From positions 1 through 33,036 of the forward strand of contig JAGXAL010000009.1 of the NCBI GenBank assembly GCA_018971605.1: a stretch of DNA of 33,036 bases, in the 5' to 3' direction. The notes under the pieces were generated by a model. The model did not search any database and had not been told where the DNA came from. It saw only the letters and a list, made by a program, of their open reading frames with translations. Below, piece after piece: positions 10,128-22,294 of the stretch (positions are counted from its first letter, which is position 1; each line of letters opens with the position of its first letter). Both the position numbers and the translations under genes were made by a program. This stretch comes from Natronospirales bacterium (GTDB taxonomy: Bacteria; Pseudomonadota; Gammaproteobacteria; Natronospirales; REEB76).

Positions 10128-11811
10128 GTACGTTTTTATGGTTGCGGTTGCCGGGGACTGAGGCCGGCGGCGAAGCGCCGTCCGCCCAGAAATCGTAAAA
10201 GTTGTACCACTGTAGCGGAAAACGCCCGGCATAGTCAGCGAGGCGCGCGGCATAGCGGCCGGCCCAGACCTGCACCGCCGCCTCGCGCCCGTCGCGCGGC
10301 AGGCGGATGCGCTCCGCGAAGGGCTCCAGGAATATCCGGTAAGCCGAGCCCTGGCGCAGGCAAAACAGCAGGTACACGGGGCACTCGAGCACGTGCGCCA
10401 GCACGTAGGGACCCATGGCAAAGCGCGCGGGCCGGCCGAGGAAGGGCACGCGCACCACCGGGCTGTCGGGCGCCAGCGACGTGCGGTCGCCGACGGTCAC
10501 CACCACTTCGCCGGCAGCGATCTTTTCTCGCAACAGCAGCGCCGTGTCCGGGCCGATGCGGTCCACCTCGAGCAGGCGCATCCGGTAAGCGTCGCTGGTG
10601 TCGGTCAAGGCTTGGTCCAGTTTGCGGGCATTGCCGGAATACACCAGGGCGTTGACGTGCAGCCCGGCCATGCGCGTGCCGAGGGCGCGCGCCAGTTCGA
10701 GGTTGCCGAGATGCGCGCTCAGCAGCAGCGCGCCGCGGCCTGCGGACAGGGCCGCCGCCAACTGCGGCTGCCCGGAGAAATCCACTTGCACGCGCAGGGG
10801 ATCCTGCCAGGCGGCCACCTTGTCGAGGATGCACACGGCGAAATTCAGAAAATGCCGGAAGCTCCGCACCGGCGATGCCGCGGCGCCGGCAGCCGTGAGG
10901 AATTCACGCGAGGCGCGGCGCGCGCGCGCATGCGTGGCCAGGAAATACGCGGTCACTGGATACAACACCGCGAGCGTGAGCCGCCGGCCAAGTACGCGAT
11001 CGAGGTTGCCGAGGAAGCGCAAGCCGCCGAGGCTGCCGCGTTCGCCGATGCGCGCCCAGTGACGCGCGCGGCGACGTGCACGGTTGCGCCGCAGCAGGCC
11101 GGGTGCACGCGGCAGCATGCCGAGAAACAGGCGCAGGTGCAGCCAGGCCATGCGCAGGTTGTCGCGCAGCATGCGGAAATGCGACAGTCCGTCCGCGGGG
11201 TAACGCACGCGCGTCGGCAGGAACAGGCTTTCGGTGCCGGCCCAGTACAAGCGCGTCATGATGTCGGTGTCGAAATCCATGCGTGCGCCGATGCGCACCT
11301 GTGCGGCGAGTGCGAGGCTGGGTGCCACCGGGTAAACCCGGAAGCCACACATGGAATCGCGCAAAGTAAATGACAAACTGTGCAGCCACACCAGTGCATG
11401 GGTGAGATAACGGCCGTAGTAGCGCACCCGGGGCACGCTCGCATCGTAACGCGGCAGTCCCGAGATCAGCTGCTGCGGATTTTGCCGTGCCAGCGCCAGC
11501 AGCGCCGGGATGTCGGCGAGATTGTGCTGGCCGTCGGCATCCACGTGCAAAGCGTGCGTGAAGCCGCGTTCGCCGGCGCGCACCATGCCGGTCATGGCAG
11601 CCACGCCCTTGCCGCGATTGCGCGCCAGCGTCAGGCATTCGACTTGCGGATTCCTGGCGGCGAGGTCCGCGAGTACCTGCTTGGTCTTGGCATCGCTGCC
11701 GTCGTCCACCAGAATCACAGGCAGGCGGTTGGCGAGCAGCGCCACGACGATCGCCTCGAGACTGGTGTGATGATTGAACACCGGGATGACGGCGCAGGCT
11801 TTGAAACTCAT
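10099..11811 (-). CDS. apeJ: Glycosyltransferase family 2 / LpxL-like acyltransferase fusion
   Basis: 570 residues in two domains. Residues 1 to about 235 are a GT2 glycosyltransferase: VIPVFNHHTSL at the start, LVDDGSD at 34-40, and a DAD metal-binding motif at 91-93. Residues from about 300 to 545 form a lysophospholipid/lipid A acyltransferase (LABLAT) domain with the HxxxxE motif His367-Glu372 in SAHLGNLELA. The fusion is typical of aryl polyene clusters and is thought to build the sugar or lipid carrier that receives the polyene. The ATG overlaps the apeI stop (ATGA). The last about 10 residues are encoded inside the ammonia-lyase start. Confidence 0.9.
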   Translation of the reverse strand: MSFKACAVIPVFNHHTSLEAIVVALLANRLPVILVDDGSDAKTKQVLADLAARNPQVECLTLARNRGKGVAAMTGMVRAGERGFTHALHVDADGQHNLADIPALLALARQNPQQLISGLPRYDASVPRVRYYGRYLTHALVWLHSLSFTLRDSMCGFRVYPVAPSLALAAQVRIGARMDFDTDIMTRLYWAGTESLFLPTRVRYPADGLSHFRMLRDNLRMAWLHLRLFLGMLPRAPGLLRRNRARRRARHWARIGERGSLGGLRFLGNLDRVLGRRLTLAVLYPVTAYFLATHARARRASREFLTAAGAAASPVRSFRHFLNFAVCILDKVAAWQDPLRVQVDFSGQPQLAAALSAGRGALLLSAHLGNLELARALGTRMAGLHVNALVYSGNARKLDQALTDTSDAYRMRLLEVDRIGPDTALLLREKIAAGEVVVTVGDRTSLAPDSPVVRVPFLGRPARFAMGPYVLAHVLECPVYLLFCLRQGSAYRIFLEPFAERIRLPRDGREAAVQVWAGRYAARLADYAGRFPLQWYNFYDFWADGASPPASVPGNRNHKNVHARPGKLPV

Positions 11812-12158
11812 TTGCTATTGGTGAAATTCAGTATGCCGCTGGAGTAGCTGTGCTGGGCGTCGCAGTATTCGTAGCGCAGCTGGATGCTGTCCGCGGCGCG
11901 ACTCAAGCGCAAGGTCAGGCGCGCGCCCGGCAGGATGGGGCGCTTGAATTTCACCTGTTCGAGAACCAGCGGCGTGGAGGGGCAGTCCTGCAGCGCCACG
12001 GCGTAGTGTACGGCCCAGCCAATCTGCACCACGCCCGGCAGGATGGCATGCCCGGGAAAATGGCCCTCGAACCAGGGGTTGTCTTTGGCCACCAGGATCT
12101 CGAGTTCGCGCCGGCCGGAACCCGTGTGTTCGGCGAGAACCGTGGGCAGGCCGTTCAT
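11808..12158 (-). CDS. apeI: Hotdog 3-hydroxyacyl-ACP dehydratase, small subunit
   Basis: 116 residues with the FabZ-like motif WFEGHFPGHAILPGVVQ, which holds the active-site His. It is the partner of ApeP in the dehydration step of polyene elongation in characterised systems. It sits in ATGA overlaps at both ends (apeH upstream, apeJ downstream). The length fits a single hotdog unit; a longer frame upstream is antiphase within apeH. Confidence 0.9.
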   Translation of the reverse strand: MNGLPTVLAEHTGSGRRELEILVAKDNPWFEGHFPGHAILPGVVQIGWAVHYAVALQDCPSTPLVLEQVKFKRPILPGARLTLRLSRAADSIQLRYEYCDAQHSYSSGILNFTNSK

Positions 12159-13519
12159 GCGCGTGAGGCGAACAGCTGCTGCAAACGGGATTGCTCGATC
12201 TTGCCCATGTCGTTGTCGGGTAGCGTCTCCGGGAAACGCCACTTGCGCGGCAACAGCACGGGTTCGTAACTGCGGCGCAACCAGTGGCGCAACTCGCGGC
12301 TGGTGGGAATCTTGCCCTGCGCATGCAAGTGCGCGCGCCCTGTCGCATTCAACACCACCACCGCGCCGATGCTGCGCCGTCGCCCCTCGACCAGCAGCAG
12401 GCGGGCGTTTTCCACCCAAGCGTGCGCCAGCAGACGTGTGCGCATTTCACTCAGCGACACGCGCTTGTCCTCGAGTTTCACCACGTCGTCCGCGCGGCCC
12501 AGCAACACCAAGCGGCCGTCCGTGTGCCAGCGCGCGAGGTCGCCCGTGGGCATCCAGTCGGACTGCCAGGTGAATCCGGATTTGACCCACAGACGGGGGC
12601 CGGCGGATTCCTCGCGCAACTCGGCCTGCATGCCCGGCAGCAGCTGCCAGTAGGGACGCTCGGCGGCGCCCGACCAGGCGCGCCAGGCGATGCCGCCGGT
12701 TTCGGTGCTGCCGTAAATCTCGATAGGCGCATGCCCCCAGTCGCGTTGCAGGCGCTCGGCGCAGTGGTCGGGAAGCGGCGCGCCCGAGCTGAATACCGCC
12801 GCGATCTGCGCCGCGGGCGGCAGCTCCGACAAATCCGCGATGCGGCTCAGGAACGCCGGGCTGCTGACGATCACGCAGCGCTGCTCAGCCGCCCAGTGGC
12901 GCAAGTCCGCCGCTTGCAGGCAGGTGAGGGTGACGAAGCTGCGCCCGGCCAGCAGCGGCCACATGACGCGCACCAGCGTACCGTACAGGTGATAGTGCGG
13001 CACCGTACCGCACACCAGCGCATCGCCGAGCTGCCCCCCCCATTGCTGTTCGAGGGTGGCGACTTCGCGGCGCAGTTGTCCGAAAGTCTTGGGCACGCAT
13101 TTCGGCATCCCGGAGGAGCCGGAAGTGTAGGACTCGATGAGGGCGCCATCGTCCGGCAGGCTGGGCGTGCTGTCGCTCGCCGGCGGAATCCCGGTTACGG
13201 ACAGCGTGGCGAATTCGGCGAAGTCCACCGGCCGGTCGGTAAGCACCGCGTCTATGTGCGCGCCGCTCGCGATGATGCTGCCGGCTTGCGGCGCCTGCGG
13301 CACCACGCACACGCGTCCGGCATGCGCCAGCGCCAGCAGCCCGGCCGCGAACCAGCTGCTGTCGTCGCACACCAGCGCCATGCGGCGCGCCGGCTGCGCG
13401 GCGAGTGCCCGGCGCAAGCCGTGCACGCGCTGCCAGAATGCGGTTTGCTCCAGCACAGTGTGATTGCCGAGCGCCACGGGCCGCGCCACTGTGCTGCGAG
13501 ACAAATGCCGCGAGTGCAT
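12155..13519 (-). CDS. apeH: AMP-dependent aryl/acyl ligase
   Basis: 454 residues of the ANL adenylation superfamily: phosphate-binding YTSGSSGMPK in the N domain, YGSTETGG in the middle, TGDLARW before the hinge, and a C-terminal NDMGKIEQ containing the catalytic lysine. It is somewhat shorter than typical acyl-CoA synthetases, like other cluster ligases. It probably activates the aryl acid starter and loads it on an ACP. The ATG lies nine bases after the apeE stop with no clear Shine-Dalgarno, consistent with coupling. Confidence 0.9.
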   Translation of the reverse strand: MHSRHLSRSTVARPVALGNHTVLEQTAFWQRVHGLRRALAAQPARRMALVCDDSSWFAAGLLALAHAGRVCVVPQAPQAGSIIASGAHIDAVLTDRPVDFAEFATLSVTGIPPASDSTPSLPDDGALIESYTSGSSGMPKCVPKTFGQLRREVATLEQQWGGQLGDALVCGTVPHYHLYGTLVRVMWPLLAGRSFVTLTCLQAADLRHWAAEQRCVIVSSPAFLSRIADLSELPPAAQIAAVFSSGAPLPDHCAERLQRDWGHAPIEIYGSTETGGIAWRAWSGAAERPYWQLLPGMQAELREESAGPRLWVKSGFTWQSDWMPTGDLARWHTDGRLVLLGRADDVVKLEDKRVSLSEMRTRLLAHAWVENARLLLVEGRRRSIGAVVVLNATGRAHLHAQGKIPTSRELRHWLRRSYEPVLLPRKWRFPETLPDNDMGKIEQSRLQQLFASRA

Positions 13520-15420: not shown

Positions 15421-16254
15421 TCAATACTCGAAGGTGCGAAACACCCAGGCGACCATGAAACCGAAGGCGTTCTGGTGGCGCTGCACGACCAGCGGGCTGG
15501 CGTTGAAGCTCGCGCCGCCCAGGTTGATGTAGCGGTAAAAGGCGCCGTACACCATGTCTCCCTGACGCCAGCCAAAGCCCAGTGATACCCGATAACCTCC
15601 GCGGCCGCTGCCGGCAAAGTAGGCCGGGCGCGTGAGTGTCGCGTATTGCGGCGCCACGCCGTAGAGATAGTTGAAGTAGTCGCTGCTGGCGTACAAGGCC
15701 GAGAGCGTGACATCGGCGTGAAAGTCACGCTCACCGCTGCGCCACTCGCGCGAGAGCTCGACCCAGGGCTCCACCACCCAGCCGCGATGATGCAGCTTCC
15801 AGCCGTCGGTGCTGATGGCGGCACGCAGCGGCAATCCGACCTCGAGTTTCAGGCCGTTATCCGTGGCGAGCGGCGTGCGGTACTTGAGCACCGGCCCGGC
15901 TTCGCCGATCCAGCCGAGGTTCGGCATGCCGCTGCGCGGCGCGTCGCGCGAGGAATTCACCGGCAGCGATGCGCTGAAGTCCACGTCCACCGCCCAGTGC
16001 TCCGCGCGCAGCAATTTTCCCGTGACGCCTTCGCGGTCGGCGTCCAGACGCGGAGTGTGCACGGTGATGAAAGGTATCGGCAGCAGGAAATTCCAGTAGC
16101 GCGCGGCGCCGGGGTAATCCGCGAAGTGCGCGCCGGCGATGCCGATGCCCAGCTCCACGCGGCTGATCGGGTTCGCGGCGGGCGGCGGATTGTCGGCCTG
16201 TGCGTACGGCATGAGCCCGACGGCGGTGACCGCAATCAGCATGCCGATGCGCAT
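15421..16254 (-). CDS. MipA/OmpV family outer membrane protein
   Basis: 277 residues. Signal peptide with probable cleavage after AQA (residue 20), then a beta-barrel pattern of alternating polar and aromatic residues, with a final FRTFEY that fits an outer membrane C-terminal signature. MipA/OmpV proteins are scaffolds or porins of the outer membrane. It is the first gene of the minus-strand operon: its stop lies beside the potential GTG of the apeC frame, and a GGAG precedes its ATG by about nine bases. A role in surface display of the polyene is speculation. Its first about 42 codons are duplicated at 21318-21445. Confidence 0.82.
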   Translation of the reverse strand: MRIGMLIAVTAVGLMPYAQADNPPPAANPISRVELGIGIAGAHFADYPGAARYWNFLLPIPFITVHTPRLDADREGVTGKLLRAEHWAVDVDFSASLPVNSSRDAPRSGMPNLGWIGEAGPVLKYRTPLATDNGLKLEVGLPLRAAISTDGWKLHHRGWVVEPWVELSREWRSGERDFHADVTLSALYASSDYFNYLYGVAPQYATLTRPAYFAGSGRGGYRVSLGFGWRQGDMVYGAFYRYINLGGASFNASPLVVQRHQNAFGFMVAWVFRTFEY

Positions 16255-16398
16255 CTGCGCTCACTCCAGGTTGACGAGCGTGCTATTGTTCTTGGCAGTG
16301 TCCTGCCGGTCAAGCAAAGCGCGTGGCCACCCCGGTTCACATACTGCTTGAGGGTGTTGTCGCGGCTCGCCATGCGCAGCGTGAGCGCGAGCTGCTGC
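16128..16398. repeat. Direct repeat, copy 1 (mipA 5' end + promoter + PPTase 5' end)
   Basis: This segment closely matches 21318-21587 in the same orientation. It spans the first about 42 codons of mipA (intact here), the 68-bp divergent intergenic region and the first about 25 codons of the phosphopantetheinyl transferase gene (broken here). Differences are scattered substitutions and a few short indels. Homology ends within codon-aligned sequence at GAGCTGCTGC, after which unrelated DNA begins. The two copies bracket a 4.9-kb insert. Confidence 0.92.
16285..16313 (-). promoter_or_regulatory. Candidate sigma70 promoter of the mipA-ape operon
   Basis: On the minus strand TTGACC (16313-16308) is followed by a 17-base spacer and AACAAT (16290-16285). 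A transcript would begin near 16278, about 24 bases before the mipA ATG, which suits the GGAG ribosome site. The spacer contains GGCAG-N4-CTGCC, a small inverted repeat. Both hexamers and the spacing are conserved in the second repeat copy at 21474-21502. Confidence 0.5.
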
Positions 16399-16576: not shown

Positions 16577-19039
16577 TCACTTCGGCTTTTTGCGGATTTC
16601 ACGCTTCCGGAATAACACGATAAATACCAGAGTCAGTAGAACCGTGCCCCCGATCGCGCCACCGCCGCTGCGAGAATTACCCGCGGGTACACTTGGGCTG
16701 GGACAAGGCAGTGAACCAGGCGCGGCAGCTGCAATCTTGGTGACGAAAGCGTTATCTGCAGTGCCGTAGGTCGTGGCCGTTTTGTTCTCTGCCTGGAGAG
16801 CGCAATGCATGGGAAAATCCGCGGAGCCCGTCGTTCCAACGACATAGACGTTGCCATAGTTATCCAGAGCAACCGCGTTGGCCGAGTCGTCGAAAGGAAT
16901 GGGAGTATGGTTTGAAGTTGGACCCCATGAACCGCTCCCGCCAAGATAGGTCGAAAACACCAGTGCACTGCCTGCCGCATTGAATTCGGTAACGAAGCCA
17001 TCGGTGGCTCCCGTGCCCGGGAAGGCGAGGGCCGCTTTGTTGGTGGCTTGAAGAGGGGCCAAAGTTGGAAAATCAGTTGACGCGGTGTTTCCCACAACCC
17101 AAGCATTACCAGCGCTGCCCACTGCGATGCCAAACGCTTGGCTAAAAGCGTCTCCGGCTCCCAAATAGGTCGAATACGCTAACGCATTCCCCGAGGCATT
17201 AAATTTGGTTACGAACGCGTCTGTGCTTCCTAGAAGTTGACTCTGGAATGGATTCACCACCGGGAAATCCGCTGATGAGGTAAAACCCGCGACGTAGGCA
17301 TCGCCACTCTGGTCAACCGCAATGGCCCGCGGCGTTGTGTCGCTGCTGCCGCCCAAGTACGTGGAATAAGCCAATACCGTTCCAGCAGGACCGAATTTGG
17401 TGACAAAACCAGTCTCGGTAGTGCTATTAACCGAAGCTGAATTAGTAGCTTGATAGGGGTTAACCAATGGGAAATCGGTCGAGTTCGTGGTGCCTGTGAC
17501 ATACGCATCCCCATAATCATCAACGGCGACCGCGTTGGCGGTCTGAGCCGCACTACCTCCCAAGTACGTGGAGTACACGAGCGAGTTACCGGTAGCGCTG
17601 AACTCTGTCACGAACGCATCCAGGCGACCTCGAAAGATACCCTGGAACGGGTTGATCGTGGGGAAATCCGCTGAGTTCGTGTCGCCGACGACGTAGGCGT
17701 GTTCAGAGCCATCCACGGCAATACCCACGCTGCCATTGAGAGTATTGCTGCCGCCGAGATAAGTCGAATAGATCAGAGCGTCACCCGCAGAATTCAATTT
17801 GGTTACGAACGTTTGCTCCGGAGGGGCGGAGGGACTACCTGTAGATTTGTTGTTTGGCTGGAACGCATTGACGGTAGGGAAATCTCGCGCGAAAGTCGAG
17901 CCGGTGACATACGCATCCCCCGCGCTATCCACCGCAATTCCGTGAGCGTCCTCACCACCGTTCGTGCCGCCGAGGTAAGTGGAGTACACGAGCGCACTGC
18001 CGCTCGCATTGAATTTACTGATAAAGATGTTGTTACCTTTATTCGTGGCTTGAAAAGGATTGCTAGTCGGGAAATTGGTGGAACCGGCATTCCCGGTTAC
18101 ATAAGCGTTACCGAAGTCATCCACGGCCACGGCGGTCGCAAAATCATTGCCATTACCGCCAAGGTAGGTGGAATACGCGAACGTCGGGTCAATCACGAGG
18201 GAATGGGCATGGTTGTAAGCCCCCAAGGCAAAAGAGACTCGCTCACCATCGAGCACGTAATGCCCGGCGACTGCATGATGCTTGCCGGCTGTCGTGATTT
18301 GATAGATCAGAGGCTTCAACGCGTGCAGAGTACGGTTGTTGGCTTTGATTGCCAGATCTCCTTTTGGATCCAAGGAAATACGCTTGGCACCAGTGATCTT
18401 GAATTGAATTTGCCGCGGATTGGTATCCGGGGCCACCACCAAATCATATTCAAGCTGATTCGGATTGCCGTAGACGATCCAGTCAATACCGGGGTAGATA
18501 TTCCGATAGCGAACCGCGGCATAGTTGGGAATTCGAGTGTGCCAATGCTTCGGATTGTCCCCGATGAAGTAGTTACTGATACTCCCGAGACGCTCTTCAG
18601 GCCGCAACAGCGGATCATTTTTTGCCCGGATCGGACGCATAGAAACCAGCGTCGGTCTGGCGTCAGCGTGGCGGGCACACGACTGTATTGGAGATGCGGC
18701 AGGCAATGGCCGGCACGCACCCGGCTGCTCCAATTTCAGAATCAAACCCCGCTCGGTCACCCCAATCATGTAGCCGTTGGCCCGAGCCAAATATTTAATT
18801 CGTGATGCCGTCTGGCCCACATTTGGCTCGAAACGAATCGGCCGTCTATCTACAGCCGCAACCAGACGATCCGGTGGCGAAACGCTGCTCCCGGGTACAG
18901 TGAGAATACGCACCGGCCTACCTTGCGCTGACGCGCCCCGCACGGCGGTGGTTGCGAGCGCTGCCACCGCGACGCCCGCAACCGCAATCACTGCCGTCCT
19001 AAGAGCGGTCCCACACTTAGGATTTGAAACAATTTTCAT
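16577..19039 (-). CDS. SBBP-repeat beta-propeller surface protein with GlyGly-CTERM-like tail
   Basis: 820 residues. A signal peptide (about 1-38) is followed by a domain starting RFEPNVGQTASRIKYLARA, typical of the N-terminal domain that precedes SBBP repeats. From about residue 290 there are seven copies of [YF]STYLG, roughly 60-80 residues apart, each followed by a variable stretch and then AVAVDDxGxAYVTG-type strands and NPFQ: a beta-propeller array. The C-terminus has SGGGAIGG, one hydrophobic segment and the basic RKREIRKK, like GlyGly-CTERM/rhombosortase sorting tails. It is predicted to be exported and surface-anchored or released. Base composition is visibly less GC-rich than the flanks. 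Function is unknown. Confidence 0.85.
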   Translation of the reverse strand: MKIVSNPKCGTALRTAVIAVAGVAVAALATTAVRGASAQGRPVRILTVPGSSVSPPDRLVAAVDRRPIRFEPNVGQTASRIKYLARANGYMIGVTERGLILKLEQPGACRPLPAASPIQSCARHADARPTLVSMRPIRAKNDPLLRPEERLGSISNYFIGDNPKHWHTRIPNYAAVRYRNIYPGIDWIVYGNPNQLEYDLVVAPDTNPRQIQFKITGAKRISLDPKGDLAIKANNRTLHALKPLIYQITTAGKHHAVAGHYVLDGERVSFALGAYNHAHSLVIDPTFAYSTYLGGNGNDFATAVAVDDFGNAYVTGNAGSTNFPTSNPFQATNKGNNIFISKFNASGSALVYSTYLGGTNGGEDAHGIAVDSAGDAYVTGSTFARDFPTVNAFQPNNKSTGSPSAPPEQTFVTKLNSAGDALIYSTYLGGSNTLNGSVGIAVDGSEHAYVVGDTNSADFPTINPFQGIFRGRLDAFVTEFSATGNSLVYSTYLGGSAAQTANAVAVDDYGDAYVTGTTNSTDFPLVNPYQATNSASVNSTTETGFVTKFGPAGTVLAYSTYLGGSSDTTPRAIAVDQSGDAYVAGFTSSADFPVVNPFQSQLLGSTDAFVTKFNASGNALAYSTYLGAGDAFSQAFGIAVGSAGNAWVVGNTASTDFPTLAPLQATNKAALAFPGTGATDGFVTEFNAAGSALVFSTYLGGSGSWGPTSNHTPIPFDDSANAVALDNYGNVYVVGTTGSADFPMHCALQAENKTATTYGTADNAFVTKIAAAAPGSLPCPSPSVPAGNSRSGGGAIGGTVLLTLVFIVLFRKREIRKKPK

Positions 19040-19124: not shown

Positions 19125-20894
19125 CTACCTGATGGCACAGTTAGCCGCCTGGAAGGAGGACGTGTCATAACCGCTCCAGATACTGCCGTTGGTGGCCCTC
19201 ACCCGGATACCGACATCCGCAAGACCCGGAGCCTTTATCTGCTGATAAGTGTGTGGCCCCTCATAAGCTTCGGTCCAGCCCCCTGTCCCGATTTCATCAT
19301 CGAACTCGTAATCTCTGGGAACGGAATCGGGACCTCCGGGCCCTGGAGCCCAAGTAATTGAATAGGTATCAATGCCGTGAAGACATGAAATGTATCCGGC
19401 TTGGAGATCAACGGGCGTGTAGACCTGCGGGGAGGGGATATTGTCTGCCAGCTCGCCGATAATCAGGCTGCCCCAGCCGGTAGGATAGTCCCAGCCGGAC
19501 AACGCACTTTCGCCGTTGTTGTTGCCGGAGGTGATGTCATGAAAGTCTGTGACGTAGTTTGAAGCCGCCGCCGAGTAAATCATGGGTGCAGCGAAGCCAA
19601 GGTCTAGGCCTCGGAGTTGCAGGATGCGAGCCCAGGTACCCACAAAGATTGGAGAGGCTAAACTAGTGCCGCCAACCAATTGGTTCGGCTGGCCGTCAAT
19701 GACTATCTCTGCGCCTGACAGCGGGTCGGCGTCAAAGGCAATATCGGCTACACCGCGGAGGTAAGTGTTGGCGTTCGGGCCGACACCGTTTTGCCACGTC
19801 GGCTGCACCACCTCGGTGCTTGGGCTGCCGCCGGTCGAGCCATATTGGCTATTCCACACTGTCTCGCCCGCCCAAGCCGTACTGCCTGAGGTGTACAAGC
19901 TAGTGCCGCCTACTGCGACTACCCAACGTGAACTCGCAGGGTACGACGGTGTAAGTGTGCTGTTGGCGCATTCGTCAGCGCCGGAGTCGCCGGACGCTAC
20001 CGAGAATGTCTGTCCTTGCGCTGCCGCTTCGTCAAATATAGTGGAATCTGCGTATAGCGCTCCATCGTTGTACGCCGTGGTTTCACATTCACCGAGCGAT
20101 ACATTGATGACTTTGACCGCATCGTCAGATGCTACCGTGTTGAAGTCCGGCGTGAGGTCGGAGTCGGCTAACGACGCCGCATCGTAGAGCACCAAGCTCT
20201 GTACGCCACCCATGGCGGCAATGGTTTGACTGTCTAAGTCCCATTCGTCTGTATTGGAGGTGTTGCTGCTGCCGGGCCCGACTACAGTGACATTTACCGA
20301 TGGCAAGCCGTTGACGCTAGTGAAATACTGCAGGTCGGTCTCCACTTGCGCCATGCTGCCCGCGGTAATGATACCGACTGGTACGCTGGACGCCGACGCC
20401 AAGCCATTTGCACCATAAATTGTTGGAAATTCAGTCGGATTATGACCAACTTCTGAGCCGCTGGTCAGCGGGCTAAATAACCCGCTCGTACTTGGATTAT
20501 GGGCATGCACGATGAGACTATGCATTTCATAGACGGTCTGTAGACCGAGCACTGCATTCACTGAGCTTTGCAAAGAGGCCGGAATATAAATATCGCTTGA
20601 GTTGGCGAATGCGTGCCGACCGTGTGGGGTCAGTACCTGCACAAATCTGGTGTGGAAGGCACTGGCGACAACACCGGCGTTCGCATCGCCAGAGACCAGC
20701 AGGTGATTCGGCGAAATCGTGATATTTATAAATCCTGCGCTGCGCATAAAGGCCGCCACTTCCTGTGCTTGAGCAAGTGTAGGCGCATAATCCGCAGTGA
20801 ATTGCGTGGGGGTTAAAATCGCATGCTGGGGATTGGCCAGGAATGTATCGAGCTTGGATTGGTCGGGTAATTTAAGCGCTATTACCACATTCAT
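19125..20894 (-). CDS. S53 sedolisin (pro-kumamolisin) serine-carboxyl protease, lacking its own signal peptide
   Basis: 589 residues. Residues 1 to about 130 are a pro-kumamolisin activation domain (VVIALKLPDQSKLDTFL, then LTPTQFTADYAPT). The catalytic domain has Glu217 and Asp221 in EWDLDS, the oxyanion Asp303 in SGDSGADE and Ser411 in GGTSLASP, so the S53 triad is complete. A late DITSGNNNG segment suits the Ca2+ site. A C-terminal tail of about 110 residues resembles a fibronectin-III-like domain. No signal peptide follows the ATG at 20894; one is encoded in a different frame just upstream (20891-21082), overlapping by ATGA. These proteases act outside the cell at acidic pH, so the split matters. 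Confidence 0.87.
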   Translation of the reverse strand: MNVVIALKLPDQSKLDTFLANPQHAILTPTQFTADYAPTLAQAQEVAAFMRSAGFINITISPNHLLVSGDANAGVVASAFHTRFVQVLTPHGRHAFANSSDIYIPASLQSSVNAVLGLQTVYEMHSLIVHAHNPSTSGLFSPLTSGSEVGHNPTEFPTIYGANGLASASSVPVGIITAGSMAQVETDLQYFTSVNGLPSVNVTVVGPGSSNTSNTDEWDLDSQTIAAMGGVQSLVLYDAASLADSDLTPDFNTVASDDAVKVINVSLGECETTAYNDGALYADSTIFDEAAAQGQTFSVASGDSGADECANSTLTPSYPASSRWVVAVGGTSLYTSGSTAWAGETVWNSQYGSTGGSPSTEVVQPTWQNGVGPNANTYLRGVADIAFDADPLSGAEIVIDGQPNQLVGGTSLASPIFVGTWARILQLRGLDLGFAAPMIYSAAASNYVTDFHDITSGNNNGESALSGWDYPTGWGSLIIGELADNIPSPQVYTPVDLQAGYISCLHGIDTYSITWAPGPGGPDSVPRDYEFDDEIGTGGWTEAYEGPHTYQQIKAPGLADVGIRVRATNGSIWSGYDTSSFQAANCAIR

Positions 20895-21082
20895 CGGTTC
20901 GTTTGTGCCAACGCACCCATCACGGTTTCACCCGTTCGCAATTTGACGTTGTGCTGGATCACTGTGAACGTGGATTGAACCGGGGTCGTCATGCCACTGG
21001 TTTGTGCCAGTGCGCTACCGGAGTCAAAACACAACAGAGCTAGAGCGAGGAGCGAGAAGGAACCTGGCAAACTCTTGAACAT
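20891..21082 (-). CDS. Signal peptide ORF preceding the S53 protease (probable frameshifted 5' end)
   Basis: 63 residues from ATG 21082, with a strong GGAGG eight bases upstream. It encodes a clear Sec signal peptide (MFKSLPGSFSLLALALLCF, cleavage near ALA-Q) and then HNVKLRTGETVMGALAQTNR, ending at TGA. The end overlaps the protease ATG (ATGA), which is in a different frame. Pro-kumamolisins normally have signal peptide and prodomain in one chain, so this looks like the displaced 5' end of that gene. Alternatives are translational coupling, programmed frameshifting or a sequence error. Confidence 0.75.
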   Translation of the reverse strand: MFKSLPGSFSLLALALLCFDSGSALAQTSGMTTPVQSTFTVIQHNVKLRTGETVMGALAQTNR

Positions 21083-21292: not shown

Positions 21293-21445
21293 TCAACAGA
21301 AAGTCTGGGGGTCCATTTGCGCGCCGGCGATGCCGATGCCCAGTTCCAGGCGGCTGACCGGGTTCGCGGCGGGCGGCGGCGGATTGTCGGCCTGCGCGTA
21401 CGGCATGAGTCCGACGGCTGCCGCGATCAGCATGCAGATGCGCAA
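21293..21445 (-). pseudogene. 5' fragment of a second mipA allele
   Basis: Reads TTG CGC ATC TGC ATG CTG and continues MLIAAAVGLMPYAQADNPPP, matching the first about 42 residues of the intact mipA at 16254 with conservative changes and in-frame gains or losses of single residues (one extra Pro, one fewer residue in the signal peptide). At 21318 homology ends; the frame runs a few codons into the insert and stops at 21293. The usual first ATG is TTG here. Confidence 0.82.
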
Positions 21446-21587
21446 GCGCAGACTCCCCGTTGACGAGCGTGCTATTGTTCTTGGCAGTGCCTTGCCGGTC
21501 AAGCGAAGCGCGTGGCCACCACGGTTCACATACTGCTTGAGGATTTTGTCGCGGCTCGCCATGCGCAGCGTGAGCGCGAGCTGCTGC
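21318..21587. repeat. Direct repeat, copy 2 (mipA 5' end + promoter + PPTase 5' end)
   Basis: Second copy of the segment at 16128-16398, about 5.19 kb away, same orientation. Here the phosphopantetheinyl transferase is intact and mipA is truncated, the reverse of copy 1. Together the copies define the boundaries of the insert. Confidence 0.92.
21474..21502 (-). promoter_or_regulatory. Duplicated mipA-type promoter facing into the insert
   Basis: Minus-strand TTGACC (21502-21497), 17-base spacer, AACAAT (21479-21474): the same hexamers and spacing as at 16285-16313. It now points through the mipA fragment towards the S53 and SBBP genes, which are on the same strand. The inverted repeat in its spacer is partly eroded (GGCA-N6-TGCC). 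Confidence 0.45.
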
Positions 21588-22294
21588 TGCGCCTGCATGC
21601 GGCGGAACAGGCGCGCTACCGTGCGTTTGCGCATGTGCGACGCCGGCAGTTCTGGCTCGCGGGCCGCGACTTGTTGCTGGCGTTGCTCGCGGTGCAGTTG
21701 CCGCACGTGGACGCGGCCGCATTGCGCACCGATGCGCGCGGCGCGGTCCGCTATGACGGCGACGACGTGCACGTCAGCCTGAGTCATTCCGGGGATCTGT
21801 TGGCTGCGGCGCTCGCGACCTGCACGGTCGGCGTGGATATTGAATGGCCGCGGCCGCGCGCCTGTATCCAGCAGGCGCGGCGCTTGTTCACAGGCACTGA
21901 ATCCCGGTATTTGCAGACGCTCCAGCCGGCCGACCGTGAAACGGAGTTTTATGCCTTGTGGACGCTCAAGGAAGCGCTGGCCAAGGCCGCGGGCATCAGC
22001 ATGTGGGATGCGTTGCGCGACACGGAATTCGATCTGCCCGCGGGCCGCTGTCGGGTGCCCTTGTCGCCGCACACTTGGAGTTGCCTGCACGCCCGCAGCG
22101 TGCACGGCTGGCATTTGGCGATTGCCACGCAAGACGCCGCTCATCCGCTGCAGGTGGAATGCTGGCGCCGCACGGCTGCGGACGGATGGCTCGCCGAACG
22201 CCTGCACGAGCAGATGACATTGCGCAGCGCCGCGCCGTTGCGCGACACATTATTTATAGACAAGCGCGCCAACGCGGATAATCGGCATGCATGA
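21512..22294 (+). CDS. Sfp-type 4'-phosphopantetheinyl transferase
   Basis: 260 residues. The Mg2+/CoA-binding motif GVDIE lies at 107-111 and WTLKEALAK at 150-158, the two signatures of Sfp-type enzymes. It transfers phosphopantetheine from CoA to the carrier proteins; ApeE (13529) and ApeF (23288) are the obvious substrates. It starts at a GTG; the stop overlaps the deacetylase ATG by 8 bp. Originally divergent from mipA, it now lies 5 kb from it because of the insertion. The first about 25 codons are duplicated at 16323. Confidence 0.9.
   Translation: MATTVHILLEDFVAARHAQRERELLLRLHAAEQARYRAFAHVRRRQFWLAGRDLLLALLAVQLPHVDAAALRTDARGAVRYDGDDVHVSLSHSGDLLAAALATCTVGVDIEWPRPRACIQQARRLFTGTESRYLQTLQPADRETEFYALWTLKEALAKAAGISMWDALRDTEFDLPAGRCRVPLSPHTWSCLHARSVHGWHLAIATQDAAHPLQVECWRRTAADGWLAERLHEQMTLRSAAPLRDTLFIDKRANADNRHA

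Follow-up and report, generated by a model that had tools for sequence, protein, structure and literature searches.

The window, a stretch of 33,036 nucleotides from a Natronospirales bacterium (assembly GCA_018971605.1, contig JAGXAL010000009.1), contains an S53 peptidase gene that is laid out as two overlapping open reading frames (ORFs). Our preferred reading, to which we assign a probability of roughly 0.6, is that it represents a recently frameshifted gene for a one-chain secreted S53 peptidase in an acquired unit, which has lost its export and is most likely a young pseudogene. A one-nucleotide frameshift would have occurred at the border between the signal peptide and the prodomain of a single S53 (sedolisin/kumamolisin-type) prepro-peptidase gene. 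Ribosomes loading at the strong upstream site would then produce a 63-residue signal-peptide stub and halt at a TGA codon, and some of them may restart at the overlapping ATG and yield a zymogen that is complete but not exported and probably latent. On balance, the secreted protease would be lost, leaving an early pseudogene. The odd two-ORF layout is most likely the mark of a single-nucleotide break in an ordinary gene for a secreted protease rather than a new two-part protease, and a frameshifted S53 gene is as such an ordinary finding. It would show, in a small and clean case, how an exoenzyme gene that was acquired is lost via its export signal first, and it illustrates how a frameshift 5' of an apparently inherited ATGA can mimic a coupled gene pair.

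Layout of the gene and domains of its product

The upstream ORF (21,082 to 20,891, reverse strand) encodes 63 amino acids and is preceded by the Shine-Dalgarno-like sequence GGAGGG (21,095 to 21,090), which is placed 7 nucleotides 5' of its ATG at 21,082. The encoded peptide starts with MFKSLPGSFSLLALALLCFDSGSALAQ and ends with GALAQTNR, and it comprises a Sec-type signal peptide, as judged by eye, and the start of the propeptide, both of which align with the N-terminus of the in-frame S53 protein of a congener from the same genus (G001). The stop codon of this ORF (TGA, 20,893 to 20,891) overlaps the ATG (20,894 to 20,892) of the second ORF, here called the body, and the two form the ATGA stop-start overlap (20,894 to 20,891) that is characteristic of translationally coupled pairs. 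The body (20,894 to 19,125, reverse strand) is read in frame -1 with respect to the signal peptide, and there is an overlap between the two open frames. The frame change, net one nucleotide, is located at about 20,908 to 20,901, where GALA in the upstream frame and TNEPM in the body frame together align without gaps to GPLP and TSQPM in G001. The first-pass annotation had described a strong ribosome site and a signal-peptide ORF running into a stop at 20,880 to 21,082, with the prodomain beginning in a different frame at the overlapping ATG, and both the description and the coordinates are correct.

Pfam, phmmer and Foldseek divide the 589 amino acids of the body into a prodomain (residues 2-120), a catalytic domain (approximately residues 145-486) and a C-terminal domain of about 100 residues. 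The Pro-kumamolisin activation domain (Pro-kuma_activ, PF09286, E=3e-15) matches the body from residue 2 and covers profile positions 16-142 of 143. The corresponding match in the in-frame relative from G001 begins at profile position 6; in the window, the first part of the profile sits in the other frame. The body is similar to the sedolisin 1nlu_A (phmmer, E=1.1e-78) and matches the structures 1ga1 and 1t1e in Foldseek. In the comparison with sedolisin (Pseudomonas serine-carboxyl proteinase, S53; 1nlu, 1ga1), the catalytic domain aligns over residues 145-486 in phmmer, Foldseek gives 48% identity over its aligned columns and the catalytic residues are kept, but the window protein differs in that its signal peptide is in another frame and in that it has the additional C-terminal domain. 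It likewise shares the fold of the prodomain and the catalytic domain, as well as the PF09286 prodomain, with pro-kumamolisin (1t1e), from which it differs in that the frame change separates it from the N-terminus of the prodomain and from the signal sequence.

The residues that we take to be catalytic are Glu217 (20,246 to 20,244) and Asp221 (20,234 to 20,232), which align with EWDLD in 1nlu, Asp303 (19,988 to 19,986) in a GDSG motif, and the nucleophile Ser411 (19,664 to 19,662) in GGTSLASP. All four align with sedolisin 1nlu and are invariant in a 20-row alignment of the window body and 19 matches picked from 37 loci, in agreement with the earlier observation that the catalytic residues are intact. 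The body thus has the Glu/Asp/Asp/Ser set in a sedolisin sequence context. In the AlphaFold model, the prodomain is well predicted and its first strand is formed by residues 2-7 (block pLDDT 81-97 over residues 1-80), but the prediction is poor for the C-terminal domain and around some of the active site, and we therefore make no claim about the geometry of the catalytic residues.

The C-terminal domain (19,125 to 19,440, residues ~487-589) is without a Pfam match. In G001, a PKD-domain protein ends in a related sequence with 33% identity to it (L055, 4,759 to 5,751), and by sequence similarity this domain of about 100 residues appears to be common to putative secreted proteins of the genus. 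In the S53 gene of G001, a stretch of about 30 residues before GFAAPML, inside the catalytic domain (L051, approximately 10,818 to 10,907), resembles by eye the start of the C-terminal domain in the window, and the same stretch seems to be missing from the C-terminal domain of the G001 protein itself. To the eye, this looks like a segment that has been displaced or a fault of the assembly.

Comparison with other S53 genes

To learn how the N-terminal part of the gene is organised in relatives, we compared the body against 50 loci by tblastn. In 44 cases the match extended into residues 1-5 of the body. Three of these were set aside, namely L001 (the window itself), L010 (a second, truncated copy of the G001 entry) and one of the duplicate entries L011 and L012, so that 41 genes were retained; seven loci (L002, L005, L007, L008, L013, L048 and L050) were left out because their matches did not reach the N-terminus. 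All 41 genes contain a start codon, a hydrophobic segment and the prodomain in a single stop-free frame, as scored by at least 63 in-frame upstream residues, a start codon and a best nine-residue mean hydropathy of at least 1.5. The signal peptide, which is expected on the same chain in secreted bacterial S53 peptidases, is placed there in each of these genes but not in the window, and a two-ORF arrangement like that of the window was found in none of the 41. The most similar relative is the single-frame S53 gene of G001 (46% identity), which reads ...TLNIGDTITGPLPTSQPMHIVVALKL in one frame, where the corresponding residues of the window are divided between GALA (upstream frame) and TNEPMNVVIALKL (body frame), without gaps. 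The reading frame in the window is thus broken relative to its intact homologs. This alignment, which had been proposed as a check in the first-pass annotation, bears out its statement that sedolisins of this class are one chain: the two frames in the window jointly correspond to the one frame in the relatives.

The column that corresponds to the ATG of the body contains Leu in 33, Met in 4 and Val in 4 of the 41 relatives, mostly after a Pro. This argues against an ATG that evolved for the purpose of initiation, and judging from the alignment the codon looks like an inherited internal one.

A functional split gene, in which the signal-peptide ORF serves as a translated leader and termination-reinitiation at the ATGA yields a cytoplasmic S53 zymogen, is very unlikely. 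The ATGA is the classic geometry for a coupled restart, which counts against the pseudogene reading, and such overlaps are treated as a recognised translational coupling geometry in PMC6728339 and PMC9841429. A restart on the overlapping ATG that gives a body product is possible. The product is predicted to hold the core of the prodomain without a signal peptide, and in the model it would keep the first prodomain strand. However, the arrangement is not conserved as two genes in any of the 41 relatives, the upstream ORF encodes a signal peptide, and no Shine-Dalgarno-like sequence was seen by eye 5' of the internal ATG at 20,894. Furthermore, the maturation of S53 zymogens is expected to require acid. 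No paper on split S53 genes was among those listed in literature searches. If the split-gene reading were true, a secreted sedolisin would have become a cytoplasmic sedolisin in a single step, and if the body is still made, it would offer a way to study how one step can turn a secreted protease into a cytoplasmic one.

The least probable of the readings considered is a recoding event, either ribosomal -1 frameshifting or transcriptional slippage, that would give back the full prepro-protein. The body is in frame -1 relative to the signal peptide and the open frames overlap, and nothing more speaks for it. No slippery heptamer of the form X_XXY_YYZ is present in the upstream frame, no tandem codon pair that would re-pair well after a -1 slip was found near the TGA, and the longest homopolymer in the last 45 nucleotides of the upstream ORF is 3. 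The RNA around and 3' of the site (20,815 to 20,915) does not fold better than shuffled sequences (z = +1.07; of 200 shuffles, 177 are at least as favorable). A frameshift conserved in relatives, as expected for programmed -1 frameshifting, was not observed, and none of the relatives needs a shift. The bypass by ribosomal frameshifting that had been offered as one explanation is thus rejected by the heptamer, codon re-pairing, homopolymer and RNA-fold tests, and a programmed bypass is unlikely. Neither recoding nor the split gene has positive support beyond the geometry of the site.

A probably acquired two-gene unit

Directly 3' of the S53 gene is a gene for an 820-amino-acid protein with a DUF7948 domain and SBBP beta-propeller repeats according to Pfam (16,577 to 19,039, reverse strand). 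The same pair of genes is present in the same order in G001 (46% identity for the S53 protein and 57% for its partner), but there it is located in another genomic context (L051, 9,309 to 13,767) and the S53 gene is in one frame. The partner was found in 2 of 13 genomes, those of the window and G001, and in a comparison of loci L003-L056 it matched only loci of G001, with no match near the S53 loci of other genera.

The two genes are flanked on the left by a mipA-like gene (15,421 to 16,254, reverse strand, Pfam MipA) and on the right by a gene for a 4'-phosphopantetheinyl transferase (21,512 to 22,294, forward strand, Pfam ACPS), which are direct divergent neighbors in three congeners (G002, G003 and G004). 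The mipA/transferase junction is duplicated in the window. The left copy (16,127 to 16,398) and the right copy (21,318 to 21,587), which contains a 5' fragment of mipA, are 91% identical over a 275-column alignment on the forward strand, with 18 mismatches in 267 aligned bases. The GC content is about 0.55 in the insert of roughly 4.9 kb and about 0.66 in its flanks. The simplest reading is an acquired two-gene unit that was inserted with a long target duplication, and the S53 gene was probably acquired together with its beta-propeller partner.

The remains of an S53 gene are also found in another congener, G007 (contig C83; L054, 5,573 to 6,788), where a 3' remnant that corresponds to residues 410-581 is located directly after a gene for an IS200-like transposase (Y1_Tnp). 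A search of the whole genome with the S53 body identified no 5' part adjoining this remnant, which is followed by a gene for an FG-GAP repeat protein.

A survey of prokaryotic pseudogenes (PMC522871) describes these as enriched for putative failed horizontal transfers and puts their chance of appearing horizontally transferred at about twice that of genes. The window gene resembles the frameshifted, putatively acquired pseudogenes of that survey in that it is disabled and has an unusual base composition, but it differs in that it has only one disablement, where more than one per match was required there. The low GC content, the presence of the pair in the same genus, the loss of the 5' part beside a transposase in G007 and the survey were counted in favor of an acquired pseudogene.

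A real break or a sequence error

The main rival of the pseudogene reading is a sequence or assembly error, in which case the gene would be alive, in one frame and encode a normal secreted S53 peptidase; we consider this possible but rather unlikely. The site is known from one sequence only, in a fragmented assembly of 195 contigs, and a single-nucleotide discrepancy within 8 bases has the look of an indel error. No second copy of the site was found in the 12 genomes searched for the family or by exact 30-mers in viral contigs, and plasmid records contained only relatives with less than 60% identity. The body is intact but for the shift, with no further stop and no second disablement, which fits an error as well as it fits a young mutation and suggests that the break is either recent or an assembly error. 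If the body has been unconstrained since the shift, the absence of stops puts an upper bound of about 0.055 substitutions per site (95%) on the time elapsed, in line with the proposal in the first-pass annotation that the frameshift is very recent or a sequence error.

Two controls argue against the error. We delimited 28 gene intervals in the window by our own choice of ORFs, 24 of which could be paired with an ORF in the congener stretches used for comparison and 4 of which could not. The S53 gene is itself among the 24, and in none of the other 23 was a frame break read as being inside the gene. A neighboring match in another frame was observed in two of them, in both cases at the extreme 5' end. 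In the interval 12,155 to 13,519, the long ORF of the relative extends into the region 5' of the gene, and in the interval 21,512 to 22,294 the other-frame match falls in the duplicated junction, so that both probably represent over-long ORFs in the relatives and not frameshifts. This control does not reveal breaks in ends with poor conservation, and the strong divergence of the signal peptide made it miss even the break in the S53 gene. The second control covered matches to ABC-ATPases in the whole genome, where none of 22 contained an internal stop or an apparent split by a frameshift. Among the short matches, two are placed in one open frame of 965 residues, one is below the family cut-off, and one, a PF00005 match in contig C74 of the window's genome, was considered as a frameshift and discarded, as it ends at the end of the contig (4,767 of 4,769). 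The clean outcome of the two controls suggests that errors are infrequent in this assembly, though a single one may have occurred, and the shortness of the homopolymers in the last 45 nucleotides of the upstream ORF also speaks against an error at the site.

A gene in G011 with a reported internal TGA was considered as a second broken S53 gene but was not counted, since its ORF is open over 603 amino acids and the TGA is presumably the terminal stop. The genome of the window contains a second, distant S53 gene (28% identity), which has an open frame of 666 residues with a hydrophobic N-terminus in frame.
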